From Halobellus litoreus (GTDB taxonomy: Archaea > Halobacteriota > Halobacteria > Halobacteriales > Haloferacaceae), in the NCBI RefSeq assembly GCF_024464595.1, contig NZ_JANHAW010000006.1, positions 1 to 34,150 on the forward strand: DNA of 34,150 nucleotides. The letters are read 5' to 3'. This document shows, one piece after another, positions 16,347 through 34,150 of this stretch. The notes under the pieces are model-generated. The model did no database searches, was not told the DNA's origin, and was given only the letters and a program-made list of their open reading frames with translations. The position numbers were made by a program, and so were the translations under genes. The first letter of the stretch is position 1, and the number at the start of each line of letters is the position of its first letter.

Positions 16347-17576
16347 ATGCGTCAGGTGGATAGACGAAAATTCGTCAGTGGCATTGGTGCTGCAACGCTT
16401 GCGGGCGTCGCAGGGTGTAGCAGTGGAGGAAGTGGCGGCGACTCCGGAGGGGACTCCGGTGGCGACTCCGGAGGAGATTCCGGTGGCGACTCCGGAGGAG
16501 ATTCCGGCGGCGACAGTGGCGACGGCGACGGCGGCGACGATATGCCGGCCCATACGGACCCCTCGACGTATCCGGAGTTCGACCCGACGGACCCCGAGTT
16601 CCCGCAGTTGACCAGCACGCTGCTCGAAGCAGGGTTCGAGACCGGCGCGATGTCGGACCTCGAGCGGATGCAGGAGAACCCCCGAGACGAGCCCCGCTAC
16701 GGTCAGCCCGTCGCGGAAACCCCCGACGACGAGAGTGAGTGGCTCGACCCCGACACGCTCGAGTTCTCGCTGACGCCGACGGAGGACCCGACGGTCTACG
16801 AGGACACGCTCCGCCCGCTGCTCGACAACATCGAGGAGGAGACCGGGAAGGAAGTCAACTACGCCTCCCTCGACTCCTACGCGGCGCAGGTCGAGGCGAT
16901 GCGTTCAGAGCGCCTGCACCTCGCGGGCTTCTCGACGGGCGCGGTCCCGTACGCGGTGAACATCGCCAACGCGGTGCCGTTCAGCGTTCAGATCGACGGC
17001 AGCGGCGAGAACGGCTCGTTCGGCTACCGGCTCTGGCTGATCACGCAGGTCGACAATCCGGATATCGGCTCGCTCGAAGACCTGGCCGGCGACCCGATGC
17101 AGAACGTCGCGCACGCCGATCCGTCGTCGAACTCCGGCAACCTCGCGCCGCGAGCGCTCTTCGCGAACGAGGGCGTCGTTCCGGGCGAGGACTACGAAGT
17201 GAGCTACTCCGGGGGCCACCAGCAGAGTTCCCTCGGCGTCGCCAACGAGGACTACGAGGCCGCCCCGGTCTGTTCGACGTGTTACGCCCGCGTCGCACGC
17301 GACGACCAGCTTGACCCCACGCAGATCAAGGCCGTCTACGCGTCCGAGCCGTTCCCGACGACGGCGTTCTCGTACGTCAACACGCTCCACCCGGACATCC
17401 AGGAGGGCGTCCGCGCGGCGTTCCTCGATTACGACTACCAGGGCACCTCGATCTCCGAGGAGTTCGAGGGGCGCGGTACCTGGGTCGAAATCGACTACGC
17501 GACCGTGTGGGACATCATCCTCCAGATCCAGGAATCGCTCGAAGTCGAGTACGAGACGGGCAACCTCTCGGAGTAA
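16347..17576 (+). CDS. phnD: phosphonate-type ABC transporter substrate-binding lipoprotein
   Basis: The 409-residue protein begins with a Tat signal (RRKFVSGIGAATL) and a lipobox ending at C24 (LAGVAGC). A low-complexity linker of seven Gly-Gly-Asp-Ser units runs from residue 30 to 57, and the mature domain follows. That domain reads as the PhnD/phosphate-phosphite-phosphonate binding family: DPTVYEDTLRPLLDNIEEETGKEVNY, a SLDSYAAQVEAMRSERLHLAGFSTGA block, SFGYRLWLITQ, DPSSNSGNLAPRALF and SYSGGHQQSSLGVANEDYEAA. It captures ligand outside the membrane for PhnC and the two PhnE proteins. No phosphonate-degrading genes are nearby, so the ligand may be a phosphonate, phosphite or another small anion. 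It is divergent from the phosphatase gene. Confidence 0.88.
   Translation: MRQVDRRKFVSGIGAATLAGVAGCSSGGSGGDSGGDSGGDSGGDSGGDSGGDSGGDSGDGDGGDDMPAHTDPSTYPEFDPTDPEFPQLTSTLLEAGFETGAMSDLERMQENPRDEPRYGQPVAETPDDESEWLDPDTLEFSLTPTEDPTVYEDTLRPLLDNIEEETGKEVNYASLDSYAAQVEAMRSERLHLAGFSTGAVPYAVNIANAVPFSVQIDGSGENGSFGYRLWLITQVDNPDIGSLEDLAGDPMQNVAHADPSSNSGNLAPRALFANEGVVPGEDYEVSYSGGHQQSSLGVANEDYEAAPVCSTCYARVARDDQLDPTQIKAVYASEPFPTTAFSYVNTLHPDIQEGVRAAFLDYDYQGTSISEEFEGRGTWVEIDYATVWDIILQIQESLEVEYETGNLSE
16434..16517 (+). repeat. seven tandem 12-bp units in phnD linker
   Basis: Seven in-frame copies of a 12-bp unit (GGCGGCGACTCC and variants) encode Gly-Gly-Asp-Ser. The unit varies mainly at third positions, so the peptide is conserved more than the DNA. 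It forms a flexible acidic tether after the lipid anchor. Confidence 0.8.
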
Positions 17577-17626
17577 TCGACGGTTCTCCCCGTTCACTCG
17601 TTTAGTACAACAGTATTATCGTAGAT

Positions 17627-18457
17627 ATGCTCTCAGTAACTGACTTACAGAAGACGTACCCGTCCGGTGACGAGGCTCTCAAAGGCGTCTCGCTCGACGT
17701 AACGGGTAGCGAGACAGTGGCAATGATCGGGCCGAGCGGCGCCGGGAAGAGTACGTTCATCCGATGCGTGAACCGACTCACCGAACCGACCGGCGGCAGC
17801 GTCGAACTCGACGGGCTGGAACTCACGACGCTCTCCGGGAAGAAACTCAGGAACGCGCGTCGCGACATCGGGATGATCTTCCAGGAGTACAACCTCATCG
17901 AGCGACTCACCGTGATGGAGAACGTCCTCTCCGGCCGACTCGGCTACGTGAACACGTGGGACGCGTTCCGCCGGAAGTTCGCCGGCGACGACATCGAACG
18001 CGCCTATGAGGTCTTAGACCGTGTCGGACTCGAAGGCCACGAGAACAACCGGGCCGACGAACTCTCCGGCGGGCAGCGCCAGCGCGTCGGGATCGCACGG
18101 GCGATCCTCCAGCGACCGAAGATCCTGCTCGTCGACGAGCCGACGAGCAGCCTCGACCCCGAGTCCTCGCGGGCGGTGATGGACCTCCTCACCGAGATCG
18201 CCGACGAGGACGACATTCCGGTCCTGATCAACATCCACGAGGTCGACCTCGCGGAGGAGTACGCCGACCGGATCGTCGGCCTCCGCGACGGACAGAAGGT
18301 CTTCGAGGGCACGCCGGCCGATCTCGACGAGACCGCGCGGGGACAGATCTACCGAGGCGAAGAGATCCCCGAGGGGGCCGGCCCCACGGGCAAGGTAGTG
18401 GCAGAAGCCGAGGCCGGCGGCGCCGCCACCGAAGAAGGCGAAATCAGGCGAGGCTAA
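17627..18457 (+). CDS. phnC: phosphonate-type ABC transporter ATPase
   Basis: The 276-residue protein has all ATPase motifs: Walker A GPSGAGKS (35-42), Q86 in FQEYN, signature LSGGQ (146-150), Walker B ILLVDE (166-171) and H204. The stretch [22 protein letters not shown] is characteristic of PhnC. An acidic, alanine-rich tail of about 25 residues ([20 protein letters not shown]) follows the family core. It drives uptake through the two membrane subunits encoded downstream. It starts 50 bp after phnD; that gap has a TATA-like AGTATTAT, so an internal promoter is possible. The next gene begins 1 bp after its stop. Confidence 0.9.
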
Positions 18458-18458
18458 G

Positions 18459-19271
18459 ATGGCGACCAAAGAAACAGATCGTCGCTCGTGGTCGCGTCCG
18501 ACGGCGTTCTACAACCACTACGTGAAGTGGGCGGTCTACGTGATTATCGCGACCTTCCTCCTGTGGAGCGCCTGGAACATGCGGATCTCGATGGCCCGGG
18601 TGTTCGAGGGATGGAACGCCGCCGTCGGGCTGGTCCAGGGAATGGTCCCGCCGGAGTACACCACGCAGTTCAAGAACGACCTGCTGATCGAGGGCCTCGT
18701 CGAGAGCCTCGCGATGTCGGTCATCGCGACCATCGTCGGCGTCATCATCTCGATCCCGGTCGCGTTCATGGCCGCCGAGAACATCGCGCCGAAACCGGTC
18801 TACTGGGCCGGCCGCGGAATCATCACTGTCTCGCGCGCGTTCCACGAACTCATCATCGCCATCATCGCGGTCAAGGCGGTCGGGATCGGCGCGCTCGCCG
18901 GCGTGATCGCGCTCTCGTACAAGACGATCGGCTTCTTCGCGAAGCTGCTCGCCGAGGAGATCGAGGACATCGACAGCGGGCAGATGGAAGCCACCGAAGC
19001 CACCGGCGCAAACCGGATACAGACGATGCTGTTCGGCGTCGTCCCGCAGGTGATGCCGCGGATCGTCGGACTGACCATCTACCGCTGGGACATCAACATC
19101 CGCCACAGCACCATCGTCGGCATCGTCGGCGCTGGGGGGATCGGCGCGACGCTTTTGAACTCGTTCGACAAGTACGATTACGACTTCTTCCTGACGATCA
19201 TCCTCGCGATCATCGCGATCGTGATGCTCGGTGAGCTGATTAGCACCTACATCAGGGGGCGGATACAATGA
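18459..19271 (+). CDS. phnE: phosphonate-type ABC transporter permease (first)
   Basis: The 270-residue protein has about six membrane segments (WAVYVIIATFLLWSAWNM, VESLAMSVIATIVGVIISIPVAFMAAE, GIITVSRAFHELIIAIIAVKAVGIGALAGVIAL and C-terminal ones). The EAA coupling loop is MEATEATGANRIQTMLFGVVPQVMP, followed by TIYRWDINIRHSTIVGIVGAGGIG, which is diagnostic of PhnE. It overlaps the second permease gene by 4 nt. A heteromeric pair of PhnE proteins is expected to form the channel. Confidence 0.9.
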   Translation: MATKETDRRSWSRPTAFYNHYVKWAVYVIIATFLLWSAWNMRISMARVFEGWNAAVGLVQGMVPPEYTTQFKNDLLIEGLVESLAMSVIATIVGVIISIPVAFMAAENIAPKPVYWAGRGIITVSRAFHELIIAIIAVKAVGIGALAGVIALSYKTIGFFAKLLAEEIEDIDSGQMEATEATGANRIQTMLFGVVPQVMPRIVGLTIYRWDINIRHSTIVGIVGAGGIGATLLNSFDKYDYDFFLTIILAIIAIVMLGELISTYIRGRIQ

Positions 19272-20059
19272 CCGACTACCAGACCTGGGAGCGACGGACG
19301 CCCCGACAGCGGATCGTTCGCTACCTGATGATGCTGATCGTGCTGGTCGCCGCTGCGATCTCTTGGCAGCTGCTCCAGATCGAGTACAACTACCTCGGGA
19401 CCGCCCCGACGGAGTTCATGGATCTGGTCACTCGGATGTACCCGCCGAACGTCGGGTACTCCGGCGAGATCATCTCCCCGATGATCGAGACGATCCACAT
19501 CGCGATTCTCGGCACGGCGCTGGCGGTCCTGATGTCGATTCCGGTCGCGCTGATCGGCGCGGAGAACACGACGCCGAACCGGCTCACCTTCCTGCTCGGG
19601 AAGTTCATCATCTCCGCCTCGCGGTCGGTGAACGTGATCATCTGGGCGCTGGTCTTCGTCATCGTCTTCGGGTCGGGCGCGCTGGCGGGGACGCTCGCCA
19701 TCGCGGTCCGCTCGATCGGCTTCTGTTCGAAACTCATCGCCGAGGCCATCGAGGAGATCGATCCCGGACAGGTCGAAGCGATCCAAGCGACCGGCGCGAA
19801 CTCGGTCGAGGCCGCCATCTACGCCATCGTGCCGCAGGTGAAGCCGGCGCTCATCGGCGTCTCCACCTACCGATGGGACATCAACGTGCGCGCCTCGACG
19901 ATCATCGGGTTCGTCGGCGCGGGCGGGATCGGCGTCGAACTGAACACGTCGATCAACTTCTTCGCGTGGCAGCAAGTCCTCACGATCCTCCTGGCGATCC
20001 TCGCCATCGTCATCTTCAGCGAGGTCGTCTCGGCGTACCTACGCCGGAAGGTGCGCTGA
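19268..20059 (+). CDS. phnE: phosphonate-type ABC transporter permease (second)
   Basis: The 263-residue protein is a paralogue of the preceding gene. The EAA loop reads VEAIQATGANSVEAAIYAIVPQVKP and is followed by STYRWDINVRASTIIGFVGAGGIG. Shared blocks such as SIPVALIGAENTTPN and IISASRSVNVIIWALVFV align with the first permease. Overlap of 4 nt (ATGA) with the upstream gene suggests translational coupling. It ends the phn operon; no catabolic genes follow. Confidence 0.9.
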   Translation: MTDYQTWERRTPRQRIVRYLMMLIVLVAAAISWQLLQIEYNYLGTAPTEFMDLVTRMYPPNVGYSGEIISPMIETIHIAILGTALAVLMSIPVALIGAENTTPNRLTFLLGKFIISASRSVNVIIWALVFVIVFGSGALAGTLAIAVRSIGFCSKLIAEAIEEIDPGQVEAIQATGANSVEAAIYAIVPQVKPALIGVSTYRWDINVRASTIIGFVGAGGIGVELNTSINFFAWQQVLTILLAILAIVIFSEVVSAYLRRKVR

Positions 20060-21208: not shown

Positions 21209-22634
21209 ATGGTGCCAGAAAAAACCAGACGGAAGTTCCTCAAAGGTGCAGGCGCAGCGACCGTCGCGGGACTCGCAGGGTGTTCGAGTCAGAACGGCGG
21301 CGGCGACTCGGGCGGCGATTCCGGGGGCGATTCGGGTGGAGACTCGGGTGGAGACTCCAGCGGAACGACGATGGGGTCGGGTCAGAGCGAATCCGTCACG
21401 ATTCAGTTCTGGCACGCGATGGGGGGCGACCTCGCGCAGCGCATCGACGACATCGTGAACAACTTCGAGGAGCAGAGCGACGGGATCACCGTCGAAACGA
21501 CGTCCCGAAACAGTTACCGGGACAACCTCAACGCGACGACGTCGGCGGTGAGTTCCGGGAACCCGCCGGCGCTCTCGCAGATCTTCGAGATCGGAACGCA
21601 ACTGGCGATCGACAGCCAGGCGTTCGTCCCGGTCGAGGACATCATTCCGAGCGATCGCATCAACTTCGACAACTTCCTCGACCCGGTGCTGGACTTCTAC
21701 CGCGTCGACGGGAAGTTGAATTCGATGCCGTTCAACTCCAGTAACGCGATTATGATGTACAACCGGGACGCCTTCGAGGAGGCCGGACTGGATCCGGACT
21801 CCCCGCCCACGACGTATCAGGGCATCACGGACGCCGCGAACACGCTCACCAGCGAGGGCGTCGTCGACCAGGGGATGACGTTCCCGAACCACTCGTGGTT
21901 CGTCGAGTCCTGGTTCGGACAGCAGAACACGACGCTCGTGAACAACGAGAACGGGCGGAGCGGACGCGCGACGGAGTCGAACCTCGACAGCGAGGCCGCC
22001 CAGAACATCTTCGAGTGGTGGGTCGACCTCTACGACCAGGATCAATACCTCAATCCGGGAATCGAGGCGTGGGGGCGAGGCCCAGCAGGCGTTCCTGACC
22101 CAGCAGACGGGGATGATCATCTACTCGACGTCGAGCATCGCGCCGATGAAGCAGGGCGCCGCCGACAACGGGTTCGAACTCGACACCGCGTACCTGCCCG
22201 CGCCCGGCGGCGATCGGACGGGGATCCCCATCGGCGGGGCGTCGCTGTGGGTCCCGCAGGGGCTCTCGGACGCGCAACAGCAGGCCGCCGCGGAACTGCT
22301 CCTGTTCATGACGCAGCCGGAGCAGCAGGCGCAGTGGCACACGGGGACGGGTTACTTCCCCGTCCGGGAGGAGTCGATCACGCAACTCGAAGACGACGGC
22401 TTCTACGAGGAGAACCCGGCGTTCCGGACGGCGATCGACCAGCTCAACGAGACCGAGAGCAGCCCGGCGACGAGCGGGGCCCTGATGGGGCCGTTCCCGG
22501 AGGTCCGCACCATCATCGAAGAGGGCTACGTGAGTATGATCCAGGACGGCGGCCCGAGCGTCTCCGACGGACTCTCACAAGTCAAAAGCGACGTCGACAG
22601 CGCGCTGCAGAGCTACAACGACCGGGTCTCGTAA
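21209..22634 (+). pseudogene. ugpB-like ABC substrate-binding lipoprotein, frameshifted
   Basis: The sequence encodes a family-1 extracellular solute-binding protein in two frames. Frame one begins with a Tat signal (TRRKFLKGAGAATVAGLAGC, lipid Cys at 25), a Gly-Gly-Asp-Ser linker, and SVTIQFWHAMGG. It continues to NPGIEAWG. From there the family-like sequence resumes in the +1 frame (EAQQAFLTQQTG, then MIIYSTSSIAPMKQ, WVPQGLSDAQQQAAAELLLFM, TGYFPV) to the stop at 22634. Removing one G from the GGGGG at 22071-22075 restores a 474-residue protein of normal length. It binds the substrate for the downstream permeases, likely glycerol-3-phosphate or its diesters by analogy with UgpB; a sugar is possible. 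The frameshift may be real or a sequencing error. Confidence 0.85.
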
Positions 22635-22656: not shown

Positions 22657-23547
22657 ATGCCAGAATTTACCAAACCGTACGAGTCGCGGTGGCAGGCGTT
22701 TCTGCTGCTGCTGCCGACGTTCGCGGTCCTGATCGCGTTTCTGTACTATCCGGGAGTCGAGACCTTTCGGTTGAGTCTCCAACAGACGATTCTCCTGGGC
22801 ACCCGAAAGACGTTCGTGGGGCTGGAGAACTACGCGACGCTGTTGACCTCCTCGACGTACCACTGGAGTTTCGCGATCTCGGTCGCCTTCGCCGCGGTCG
22901 TCGTCATCGGCACGCTCGTGGCGTCGCTGGTCGTCGCGTATCTCCTCTTCCAGGTCGACATCGGATCGTCGACGTACCTGATCGCGGCGATATGGCCGTA
23001 CGCGCTGCCGACGGCCGTCGCCGCGTCGGTGCTGCTGTTCCTGCTGCATCCGTCCCTGGGGATCATCACCTACGTGCTGGAGAGCCTCACCGGGACCTCG
23101 CTGGACTGGTTCACGAGCGGCCCGCAGGCGTTCGCGGTCGTCGCCGTCGTGGCCATCTGGAAGCAGTTGGGGTACAACATCATCTTCATGGTGGCGGCGC
23201 TGAACAACATACCCGAGACGCTGACCGAATCGGCCAAACTGGACGGTGTCGGCCACCTGAAGATGCTCTATCGGGTTTACGTCCCCCTGATGTCGCCGAC
23301 GCTGGTCTTCCTCGTGGTGATAAACACCATCTACGCGTTCTTCCAGACGTTCCCACTCGTCGACCTGATGACGAGCGGCGGACCGAACGAGGCCACGAAC
23401 CTGCTGATCTTCAAACTGTACCGCGACGCGTTCGAGTTCAGTAACCTCGGACTCGCGTCCGCGGAGTCGGTCGTCCTGTTCGCCATCGTGGCGATACTGA
23501 TGTACGTCCAGTTGCGGCTGTCGGAGAGCTACACTACCTATGCGTGA
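22657..23547 (+). CDS. ABC permease, UgpA/MalF type
   Basis: The 296-residue protein has six membrane segments, starting WQAFLLLLPTFAVLIAFLYYP. The EAA loop is ETLTESAKLDGVGHLKMLYRVYVPLMSP. The segment LVDLMTSGGPNEATNLLIFKLYRDAF is typical of carbohydrate and glycerol-phosphate permeases (UgpA/MalF family). It forms a heterodimer channel with the next permease. It starts 22 bp after the binding-protein stop, on the same strand. The order matches bacterial ugpBAECQ. Confidence 0.88.
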   Translation: MPEFTKPYESRWQAFLLLLPTFAVLIAFLYYPGVETFRLSLQQTILLGTRKTFVGLENYATLLTSSTYHWSFAISVAFAAVVVIGTLVASLVVAYLLFQVDIGSSTYLIAAIWPYALPTAVAASVLLFLLHPSLGIITYVLESLTGTSLDWFTSGPQAFAVVAVVAIWKQLGYNIIFMVAALNNIPETLTESAKLDGVGHLKMLYRVYVPLMSPTLVFLVVINTIYAFFQTFPLVDLMTSGGPNEATNLLIFKLYRDAFEFSNLGLASAESVVLFAIVAILMYVQLRLSESYTTYA

Positions 23548-23647: not shown

Positions 23648-24517
23648 ATGGCAACACGGTCATCTTCCGAGTCGGCGCTCGCTCGGTTGCTACCCGGGGA
23701 CGTCGACGCCGAGCAGGCGCTCATTCACGGCGGGCTCGCGGTGTCGATTTTCCTGATGGGGCTGCCGCTGCTCCTGGCGCTGATTATGAGCACGCAGAAC
23801 ACGACGGAGGTGTATCAGATCACCAACGTCGGAATCGGGAGTCAGGGGCTCTCGAACTACGGGACCGTGCTCGGCGAGTACAACTTCGGACAGTACATGA
23901 TCAACTCGGTCGTGATGTCGGTGATCATCGTCGTCGGGAAGGTGACGCTCTCGCTGTTCGCGGCGCTGGCGCTCGTCTACTACCGGTTCCCCTACGAGCG
24001 CGCCGTGTTTATGTTCATCCTGCTCACGCTCCTGTTGCCGGTCCCGGTCCGGATCGTGCCGCTGTTCGACCTGATGGCGCGGCTCGGCTGGGGGAACACC
24101 CTGATGGCGATCACCGGGCCGTACATCGCGAGCGCGACGGCGGTGTTCCTGTTCCGACAGCACTTCATGTCGATTCCCGCCTCGCTGGTCGAGAACGCAC
24201 ACCTCGACGGCGTCGGGCCGCTGACGTTCCTCTGGAAGGTGCTGATCCCGATGTCGAGAGGGATGATCGCCGGCGTCTCGGTGATCACCTTCATCTACGC
24301 GTGGAACCAGTACCTCTGGCCGCTCATCATCATGAGCGATCAGAACAAGCAGGTGGTGCAGGTCGGGCTTCGGTTCCTCCAGGCGGCCTCGCAGTCGGGG
24401 CTCACGCGGTGGGGAATCATCATGGCCGGCGCGGTGATCGCGCTCCTGCCACCGCTCTTGGTACTCATCATCATGCACCGCCCGCTCCTCAAGACGCTGG
24501 CGATCCAACAGAAGTGA
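23648..24517 (+). CDS. ABC permease, UgpE/MalG type
   Basis: The 289-residue protein has six membrane segments, beginning AVSIFLMGLPLLLALIMS-like sequence after a polar N-terminus. Family marks are the YYRFPYERAVFMFILLTLLLPVPVRIVPLFDLM block and the EAA loop SLVENAHLDGVGPLTFLWKVLIPMSRG. WNQYLWPLIIMSDQNKQVVQVGL follows, as in UgpE/MalG proteins. It is separated from the previous permease by 100 bp, with a 30-codon frame from 23552 that looks non-coding. The ATPase gene follows 6 bp downstream. Confidence 0.88.
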   Translation: MATRSSSESALARLLPGDVDAEQALIHGGLAVSIFLMGLPLLLALIMSTQNTTEVYQITNVGIGSQGLSNYGTVLGEYNFGQYMINSVVMSVIIVVGKVTLSLFAALALVYYRFPYERAVFMFILLTLLLPVPVRIVPLFDLMARLGWGNTLMAITGPYIASATAVFLFRQHFMSIPASLVENAHLDGVGPLTFLWKVLIPMSRGMIAGVSVITFIYAWNQYLWPLIIMSDQNKQVVQVGLRFLQAASQSGLTRWGIIMAGAVIALLPPLLVLIIMHRPLLKTLAIQQK

Positions 24518-24523
24518 TCACAC

Positions 24524-25663
24524 ATGTCTGATATCAATATCCGTGATTTGACGAAGGAGTTCGACGACGTAACGGCAGTCGACAACATCGATCTCGACGT
24601 GAAAAACGGGGAGTTCCTCGTGCTGGTCGGTCCCTCGGGGTGCGGAAAGTCGACCACGCTCCGGATGATCGCCGGGCTGGAGGACATCACGAGCGGCGAA
24701 CTTCGCATCGGCGACCGCCGCGTGAACGATCTGGAACCGAAGGAACGGAGCATCGCGATGGTGTTCCAGAACTACGCGCTGTATCCGCACATGACCGGGG
24801 CGGAGAACATGAAGTTCGGGATGAAGTCGGTCAGCGACTACACCAGCGAGGAGATCGACCAGCGCGTCAGAGACGCCGCCGACATCCTCGACATCCCGGA
24901 GTTGCTCGAGCGCCGACCGAGCGAACTCTCGGGCGGGGAGCGACAGCGGGTCGCCATCGGCCGAGCGATCGTCCGCGAGCCCGACGTGTTCCTCCTGGAC
25001 GAACCGCTGAGCAACCTCGACGCGAAGCTCCGGGTGCAGATGCGCGCGGAGCTGTTGCAACTGCATCGGGAACTCGACGCCACGACCCTCTACGTGACCC
25101 ACGATCAGACCGAGGCGATGACGCTCGGCGATCGGGTCGCGGTCCTGAACGACGGAGAGATCGAGCAGGTAGATCCCCCGCAGATGCTCTATGACTTCCC
25201 CGACACGCGGTTCGTCGCGGAGTTCATCGGCAGCCCCGCGATGAACATCGTCCCGGTCGAACTCACGGGGGGCGACGAGCCCTACGCTCGACACGAGCAC
25301 TTCGAGCTATCGCTGCCGAACCCGGAGCTGTTCACCGAGCGACCGGACTCGGCGTACTTCGGCGTCCGTCCGGAAGACATCTCGCTCGCGGACAACGTGG
25401 CGGGCGAGGCCGAGACCTTCGAGGCCGAAGTGAGCGTCACCGAGCCGCTCGGGGAGTCGCTCCTCATCCACTGTCTGCTCGGCGACGACGAACTCCACGT
25501 GAAGGCCGAAGCGCGGAGCGAGATCGATCCCGGCGACACGATCGAGCTCCAGGTCGACGAGGAACGACTGCACGTCTTCAACGACGCCGGCGACGCGATC
25601 TATCACTCCTCGCCGCGAGGAGCGTCGACGTCCGACACCGTCGAGACGCAGGTCGAACCTTGA
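24524..25663 (+). CDS. ABC ATPase, UgpC/MalK type
   Basis: The 379-residue protein has an ATPase domain with Walker A GPSGCGKS (36-43), FQNYALYPHMT, signature LSGGE (135-139), Walker B VFLLDE (155-160), D-loop SNLDAKLR and H193. The last 140 residues form the MalK-type regulatory (TOBE/OB) domain, with the family feature FIGSPAMN and VRPEDISL. This pairs with the two permeases to power uptake. GTGATCA-like sequence just before the ATG can serve as a ribosome-binding site and includes the upstream stop. The glycerophosphodiesterase gene follows 114 bp later. Confidence 0.92.
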   Translation: MSDINIRDLTKEFDDVTAVDNIDLDVKNGEFLVLVGPSGCGKSTTLRMIAGLEDITSGELRIGDRRVNDLEPKERSIAMVFQNYALYPHMTGAENMKFGMKSVSDYTSEEIDQRVRDAADILDIPELLERRPSELSGGERQRVAIGRAIVREPDVFLLDEPLSNLDAKLRVQMRAELLQLHRELDATTLYVTHDQTEAMTLGDRVAVLNDGEIEQVDPPQMLYDFPDTRFVAEFIGSPAMNIVPVELTGGDEPYARHEHFELSLPNPELFTERPDSAYFGVRPEDISLADNVAGEAETFEAEVSVTEPLGESLLIHCLLGDDELHVKAEARSEIDPGDTIELQVDEERLHVFNDAGDAIYHSSPRGASTSDTVETQVEP

Positions 25664-25777
25664 TGCGCGGGAGGACGGACGTCGCAGGGTTCGACTGGGC
25701 GTCTATCAGCACGCCGTCGCCCCTGGCCGTGACGGCGCGTGAGCCAGCATCCCGGAACTCGGCAGGGGGGCGCTGAG

Positions 25778-26476
25778 ATGCGCCCGATCGCCCACCGCGG
25801 GTGTATGGCGCAGTACCCGGAGAACACCCTGGAGGCGTTTCGGCGCTCAGCCGCGGTCGTGGAGATGATCGAGACCGACGTCCAGCGGTGCGGCTCCGGC
25901 GAACTGGTCGTCTTCCACGACGAGACCCTCGATCGGGTGACCGACGCGACCGGCGAGGTGGCGTCGACGCCGCTCTCGACGCTCAGAGCCGCCTCGGTCC
26001 TCGGAACCGACGAGTCGATTCCGCTCCTGACCGAGGTGTTCGAGGCCGTTCCCCCGAGCGTCGGGCTGAATCTCGAACTGAAGGGAACGGACGTCGCGGC
26101 CGACGCCGTCGAGATCGCCGGGCGGTACGACCACGAGGTGATCGTCTCCTCGTTCCGGCCCGACGACGTCGCGGACGCTCGCGACGCGGGCGCGGCGGCG
26201 GTCGCGTTCCTGCTCTACGCCGACGCCGACGCGACTGCCGAGTTCGACGTTTCCGGCGCGCTCGACGTCGGCGAGGACCTGGACTGTTCGTACGTCCACC
26301 CGCACGTGCATCTCTGTCTCGACACCGACGTCGTCGAGCGAGCGCACGCCAGGGGGTTCGGTGTCAACGCCTGGACCGCCGAGCAGCGCGAAACGATCGG
26401 CGAACTCCGCGCGCGCGGCGTCGACGGCGTCGTGATCGACGACTGCGGGTTGGCGGACGACTGTCGGGACGGGTGA
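25778..26476 (+). CDS. glycerophosphodiester phosphodiesterase
   Basis: The 232-residue protein is a GDPD-family TIM barrel. Catalytic residues are visible: H6-R7 (AHRG), E15 in PENT, E32 and D34 (IETDVQ), H47 (VVFHDETLDR) and the later glutamate in LNLELKG. The C-terminal GFGVNAWTA and GVDGVVIDD strands complete the barrel. It hydrolyses glycerophosphodiesters to glycerol phosphate and an alcohol. No signal peptide is present, so it acts on imported diesters in the cytoplasm, as UgpQ does in bacteria. The ATG at 25778 is preferred over a GTG at 25739 because the fold begins immediately. It ends the cluster. Confidence 0.9.
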   Translation: MRPIAHRGCMAQYPENTLEAFRRSAAVVEMIETDVQRCGSGELVVFHDETLDRVTDATGEVASTPLSTLRAASVLGTDESIPLLTEVFEAVPPSVGLNLELKGTDVAADAVEIAGRYDHEVIVSSFRPDDVADARDAGAAAVAFLLYADADATAEFDVSGALDVGEDLDCSYVHPHVHLCLDTDVVERAHARGFGVNAWTAEQRETIGELRARGVDGVVIDDCGLADDCRDG

Positions 26477-33682: not shown

Positions 33683-33758
33683 AGCCAAGGGCCGGATTTG
33701 AACCGGCGATGGGCGGCTCTGCAGGCCGCTGCGTTAGGCCGGACTCTGCCACCTTGGC
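33683..33758 (-). tRNA. tRNA-Cys (GCA anticodon)
   Basis: The minus strand folds as a cloverleaf: acceptor stem GCCAAGG/CCTTGGC, anticodon stem GCGGC/GCCGC with loop CTGCAGA (anticodon GCA), and T-arm GCCGG-TTCAAAT-CCGGC. The discriminator base is U, as expected for cysteine tRNAs. CCA is not encoded. It lies 123 bp after the 5S rRNA, the usual haloarchaeal rRNA-operon position. Confidence 0.95.
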
Positions 33759-33881
33759 GCATCTCTCACTATTGCGTTTCAGCGTTTAAGCCTAGCGGTA
33801 CGGTGTGGTGACGTCCTGGTTCGAAATGAAGCGCGCCCACGAGACGCGGTGTCTCGCGGGCGCGAGTGTGTGGTATGAGTG

Positions 33882-34003
33882 GGAGGCGGCGAGCCAGTGT
33901 TCCCAGAGGATCGCTCACTCCAGTACTTGCTGACACGCTGGCAGGCTTAACTTCCGTGTTCGGGATGGGTACGGGTGGAACCCTGCCGCTCTGGCCGCCT
34001 TAA
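33882..34003 (-). rRNA. 5S ribosomal RNA
   Basis: The minus strand shows archaeal 5S sequence: TTAAGGCGGCC at the 5' end, the conserved CCCGTACCCATCCCGAACAC and GGAAGTTAAGCC, then GTACTGGAGTG and a 3' end CGCCGCC pairing with the 5' GGCGGC. Length is about 122 nt. Ends are inferred from pairing. The 23S gene should lie past the right edge. Confidence 0.93.
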
Positions 34004-34005
34004 CG

Positions 34006-34065
34006 CCGACTGGGGGACTCGAACCCCCACTCTCCGTCTTTCGACGTGAGAGTGACCGTCGTCGG
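34006..34065 (-). ncRNA. tRNA-like leader element before 5S rRNA
   Basis: On the minus strand CCGAC (34065-34061) pairs with GTCGG (34010-34006), closing two arms. One is a long hairpin ACTCTC/GAGAGT plus CGTC-GAAA-GACG. The other is a T-arm mimic, GGGGG-TTCGAGT-CCCCC (34028-34012). There is no D-arm. The 5S RNA starts 2-3 nt later. In Haloferax volcanii tRNase Z has been shown in vitro to cut 5S precursor at a tRNA-like leader, and this element fits that role. Confidence 0.75.
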
Positions 34066-34150
34066 TTCCGGCTTCCGTGACGTACGGTAACCATTGAAAC
34101 GCGCGCAATCCAGTTTCCGCCTGAACCCGTCCATCGAGTGGACTGTAGTG
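34066..34150 (-). other. 23S-5S spacer, left part
   Basis: This is the transcribed spacer of the rRNA operon between 23S and 5S. I could not recognise 23S sequence with certainty before the window ends. Confidence 0.4.

Follow-up and report, generated by a model that had tools for sequence, protein, structure and literature searches.

A five-G frameshift in the ugpB-like gene of a Halobellus importer cluster, most likely a recent loss of function

What has happened to the ugpB-like gene at the head of an importer cluster in a Halobellus genome, where the coding sequence changes frame within a run of five G? The window, i.e., the whole stretch of DNA analyzed here, is one complete contig (C6) of 34,150 bases, and the genome to which it belongs comprises 3.86 Mb in 10 contigs. 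The first-pass annotation had reported a frameshift splitting the gene, and had offered four explanations for it: a recent inactivation, a reversible slippage switch, a programmed frameshift or a sequencing error. The cluster has the gene order ugpB-A-E-C, followed by a gene for a glycerophosphodiester phosphodiesterase (GDPD) (Table 1). A literature search found no report on this ugpB gene or on the strain.

Table 1. Features of the ugp cluster in the window
Feature	Coordinates	Strand	Evidence
ugpB-like gene, Tat lipoprotein substrate-binding protein, frameshifted	21209..22634	+	Pfam SBP_bac_8, both halves
GGGGG run with the extra base, point of the frame break	22071..22075	+	alignment, codon-usage HMM
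Reading frame starting at the ATG: 289 native and ~218 out-of-frame residues	21209..22732	+	
ugpB C-terminal remainder, +1 frame, 173 aa from the first ATG	22113..22634	+	Pfam SBP_bac_8
ugpA-like permease, intact	22657..23547	+	296 aa, 97% to H. rarus, full length
ugpE-like permease, intact	23648..24517	+	289 aa, 96%, full length
ugpC-like ATPase, intact	24524..25663	+	379 aa, full length; exceeds NCBIfam UgpC cutoff
Glycerophosphodiester phosphodiesterase (GDPD), intact	25739..26476	+	Pfam GDPD 1.1e-32

The frame that opens with the ATG at 21209 encodes a family-like protein as far as ...GIEAWG (residue 289), and breaks at the GGGGG run. The native sequence then resumes in the +1 frame (...GEAQQAFLTQQTGMII...), in which the peptide TIIEEGYVSMIQDGGPSVSDGLSQVK lies after the break, and continues to a stop at 22634, as the first-pass annotation had described. 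Removal of one G in silico yielded a protein of normal length, ~474 residues, again in line with that annotation. A codon-usage HMM, applied without prior knowledge of the site, placed a frameshift at 22073. The initial description can be refined in one respect: the family-like sequence does end at the GGGGG run, but the frame itself does not stop there. For about 220 codons further it encodes arginine-rich, out-of-frame sequence, running into ugpA by 76 bases and terminating at 22732, which gives a product of 507 aa in total.

The two halves of the ugpB-like gene match consecutive parts of the Pfam SBP_bac_8 profile, and the N-terminal part of the protein is of the Tat lipoprotein type (RRKFLK...LAGC). 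The closest solved relative of the intact orthologue is the E. coli UgpB structure 4aq4 (E 8e-55), while its score with the NCBIfam UgpB model is 217 bits against an equivalog cutoff of 411. UgpC exceeds its NCBIfam cutoff, and UgpA and UgpE are the best-matching models for the permeases, with scores below the equivalog cutoffs. Two permeases and a MalK-type ATPase thus lie in one cluster, and the ugpB-A-E-C gene set with its GDPD gene resembles the UgpBAEC importer of E. coli, from which the system in the window differs in having a haloarchaeal Tat lipoprotein and a broken binding protein. Judged by these matches, the cluster is predicted to encode a UgpBAEC-type importer that would bind and import glycerol-3-phosphate. 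The four genes downstream of ugpB were rightly annotated as intact, being full length in comparison with two relatives. Directly upstream of the ugp cluster lies a phosphonate-type ABC importer cluster (16347-20059) with genes for a PhnD-like binding protein, an ATPase and two permeases, PhnE scoring above its NCBIfam cutoff. The two clusters likely form a phosphorus-scavenging island.

The window gene was aligned with 14 relatives (n = 15), namely nine orthologues from the same genus (82-92% DNA identity), the nearest being that of H. rarus YC21, and five more distant sequences. All 14 relatives have one continuous frame and one base fewer at the column corresponding to 22071, the extra base being present in the window genome only. 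In the close set, this base is the sole frame-breaking indel within the gene. The G run at this site comprises four G in nearly all relatives, and six G, in frame, in one of them (G004). A frame that is disrupted in one genome and whole in its relatives is the pattern of a frameshift pseudogene. No close paralogue of UgpB that might compensate for the break was found in the window genome, in which the next best protein is 29% identical. Plasmids were also searched for a second, independent version of the locus; the pieces retrieved were all more distant, and each covered less than 80% of the gene. In a protein search of 16 other Halobellus genomes at a threshold of E 1e-40, four lacked any match, and the matches in a further three were all distant (37-54% identity). 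The ugpB locus is therefore dispensable in the genus.

The age of the break was assessed by counting, in the restored frame, the changes that arose in this lineage since its split from H. rarus. Upstream of the break, 22 of the 25 lineage-specific substitutions are at third codon positions, and downstream of it 15 of 17. Under neutral drift about one third of changes are expected at third positions. The downstream excess (p ~4e-6 versus equal use of the three positions) indicates that selection acted on this part of the gene along most of the branch, and the constraint extends up to the recent past. The break is therefore either very young or an artefact; taken roughly, the counts would put it no earlier than the final quarter of the branch.

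The protein with the break loses the last 187 native residues. At each of the seven glycerol-3-phosphate contact positions of E. coli UgpB, the H. rarus orthologue has an identical residue. Three of these positions precede the break in the window gene and four follow it, the latter corresponding to Ser270, Gly307, Tyr346 and Arg397 (E. coli precursor numbering). The 507-residue hybrid should not bind the ligand.

Of the four explanations offered at the outset, we consider it most likely that the sequenced isolate has recently lost the function of the gene through a frameshift. According to this scenario, a single G would have been inserted very recently into a short G run, and ribosomes would pass through the run into the wrong frame, producing the hybrid. 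Since the last 187 native residues are missing, the hybrid would be unable to form a closed ligand-binding cleft. The substrate-binding protein of the UgpBAEC-type glycerol-3-phosphate importer would thus be knocked out, and the intact permeases, ATPase and GDPD would be left without a dedicated binding protein. The extra base would then be present in the DNA of the living strain, and transport would be lost. What counts against a mutation is that the gene shows no decay beyond the one base, which is equally expected from a consensus error.

An isolated consensus or assembly error, in which case the G run of the strain is four long and its ugpB normal, is the second most likely explanation, possible though clearly less probable than a mutation. 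It would account for the intact form in all relatives and for the codons downstream of the break that are still constrained. There is also a precedent, as single-base differences in poly-G and poly-C tracts of haloarchaeal reference sequences have been attributed to sequencing error (PMC11834397). Such homopolymer differences and ordinary haloarchaeal frameshift pseudogenes resemble the present case in that a G or C tract has changed by one base. The present case stands alone within a sample of 1.19 Mb and affects a gene that is otherwise constrained.

This sample was analyzed with the codon-usage HMM, which allows frameshifts at a penalty and recovered 138 of 150 planted single-base indels (~92%). 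It was used in place of a comparison of the longest ORFs of the relatives, which was muddled by antisense ORFs. In the 1.19 Mb of the window genome covered, ~1.16 Mb of which was sampled as stretches, the HMM made two internal calls, one of them at the window site. The other, on contig C2 near 934.9-935.2 kb, proved spurious: the locus encodes a DnaJ-like protein with a low-complexity linker in one open frame. No further genuine internal frameshift was found in the 1.19 Mb, and this argues against an error, given that the 0.96 Mb of predicted coding sequence sampled contains 1,261 homopolymer runs of G or C with a length of five bases (1,070 runs) or more (191 runs). Because so many runs were sampled and many breaks were not seen, a systematic or platform-wide homopolymer problem is excluded. 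A single stray error is compatible with the clean sample, and one event per 1.19 Mb could occur in a good draft assembly. In another Halobellus genome, an assembly of four contigs, the HMM made six internal frameshift calls in 234 kb (G009 contig C1; L024, L066-L075), all of the fs-1 type, which suggests residual indel errors in the assembly, pseudogenes or false HMM calls.

The position of the site within the assembly also speaks against an error. The right end of the contig carries a tRNA-Cys and a 5S rRNA gene (33683-34150), and the assembly break there is probably caused by the rRNA operon repeat, since contigs C2 and C9 carry the final 338 bases at their ends too. The frameshift site is located in single-copy DNA, ~12 kb from this repeat-bounded end.

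A +1 ribosomal frameshift, be it programmed or fortuitous, or slippage during transcription, by which some full-length UgpB would still be made, is very improbable. The zero frame is open past the run, where GGG is followed by CGA, a rare codon in the genus (log-odds -1.37), and frameshifting is used by haloarchaeal viruses (PMC5009743). However, all 14 relatives have a continuous frame, and a shift site is neither needed nor conserved in any of them. As for the transcript, the cases of slippage by bacterial RNA polymerase cited in a review involve runs of nine A or T (PMC5009743), compared to five G here. A trace of accidental +1 shifting may occur at the rare CGA, and nothing points to selection for shifting.

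Least probable of all is phase variation, with ugpB being turned on and off through replication slippage at this tract: the run is a homopolymer, and its G count varies among relatives (either four G with another base or, in G004, six), but both of these forms are in frame, the off state occurs in no relative, five G is a short and common tract rather than a long hypermutable one, and the binding protein of a nutrient importer is not a usual contingency gene. It is likewise highly unlikely, if marginally less so than either of these mechanisms, that a population containing both four-G and five-G forms, or +1 shifting at GGG CGA, provides tunable uptake of phosphate esters. The phenomenon is an ordinary one: either a mutation that has recently broken the gene or a lone sequencing error, and in all probability no switch.

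The case provides a usable way of telling, without reads, a systematic assembly error from a lone event, and is otherwise of little importance beyond the strain. If the extra base is an error, one base of the record is to be corrected. If it is real, the annotation of ugpB should be changed to pseudogene, and uptake of glycerol-3-phosphate through the ugp system should not be taken for granted in this strain.
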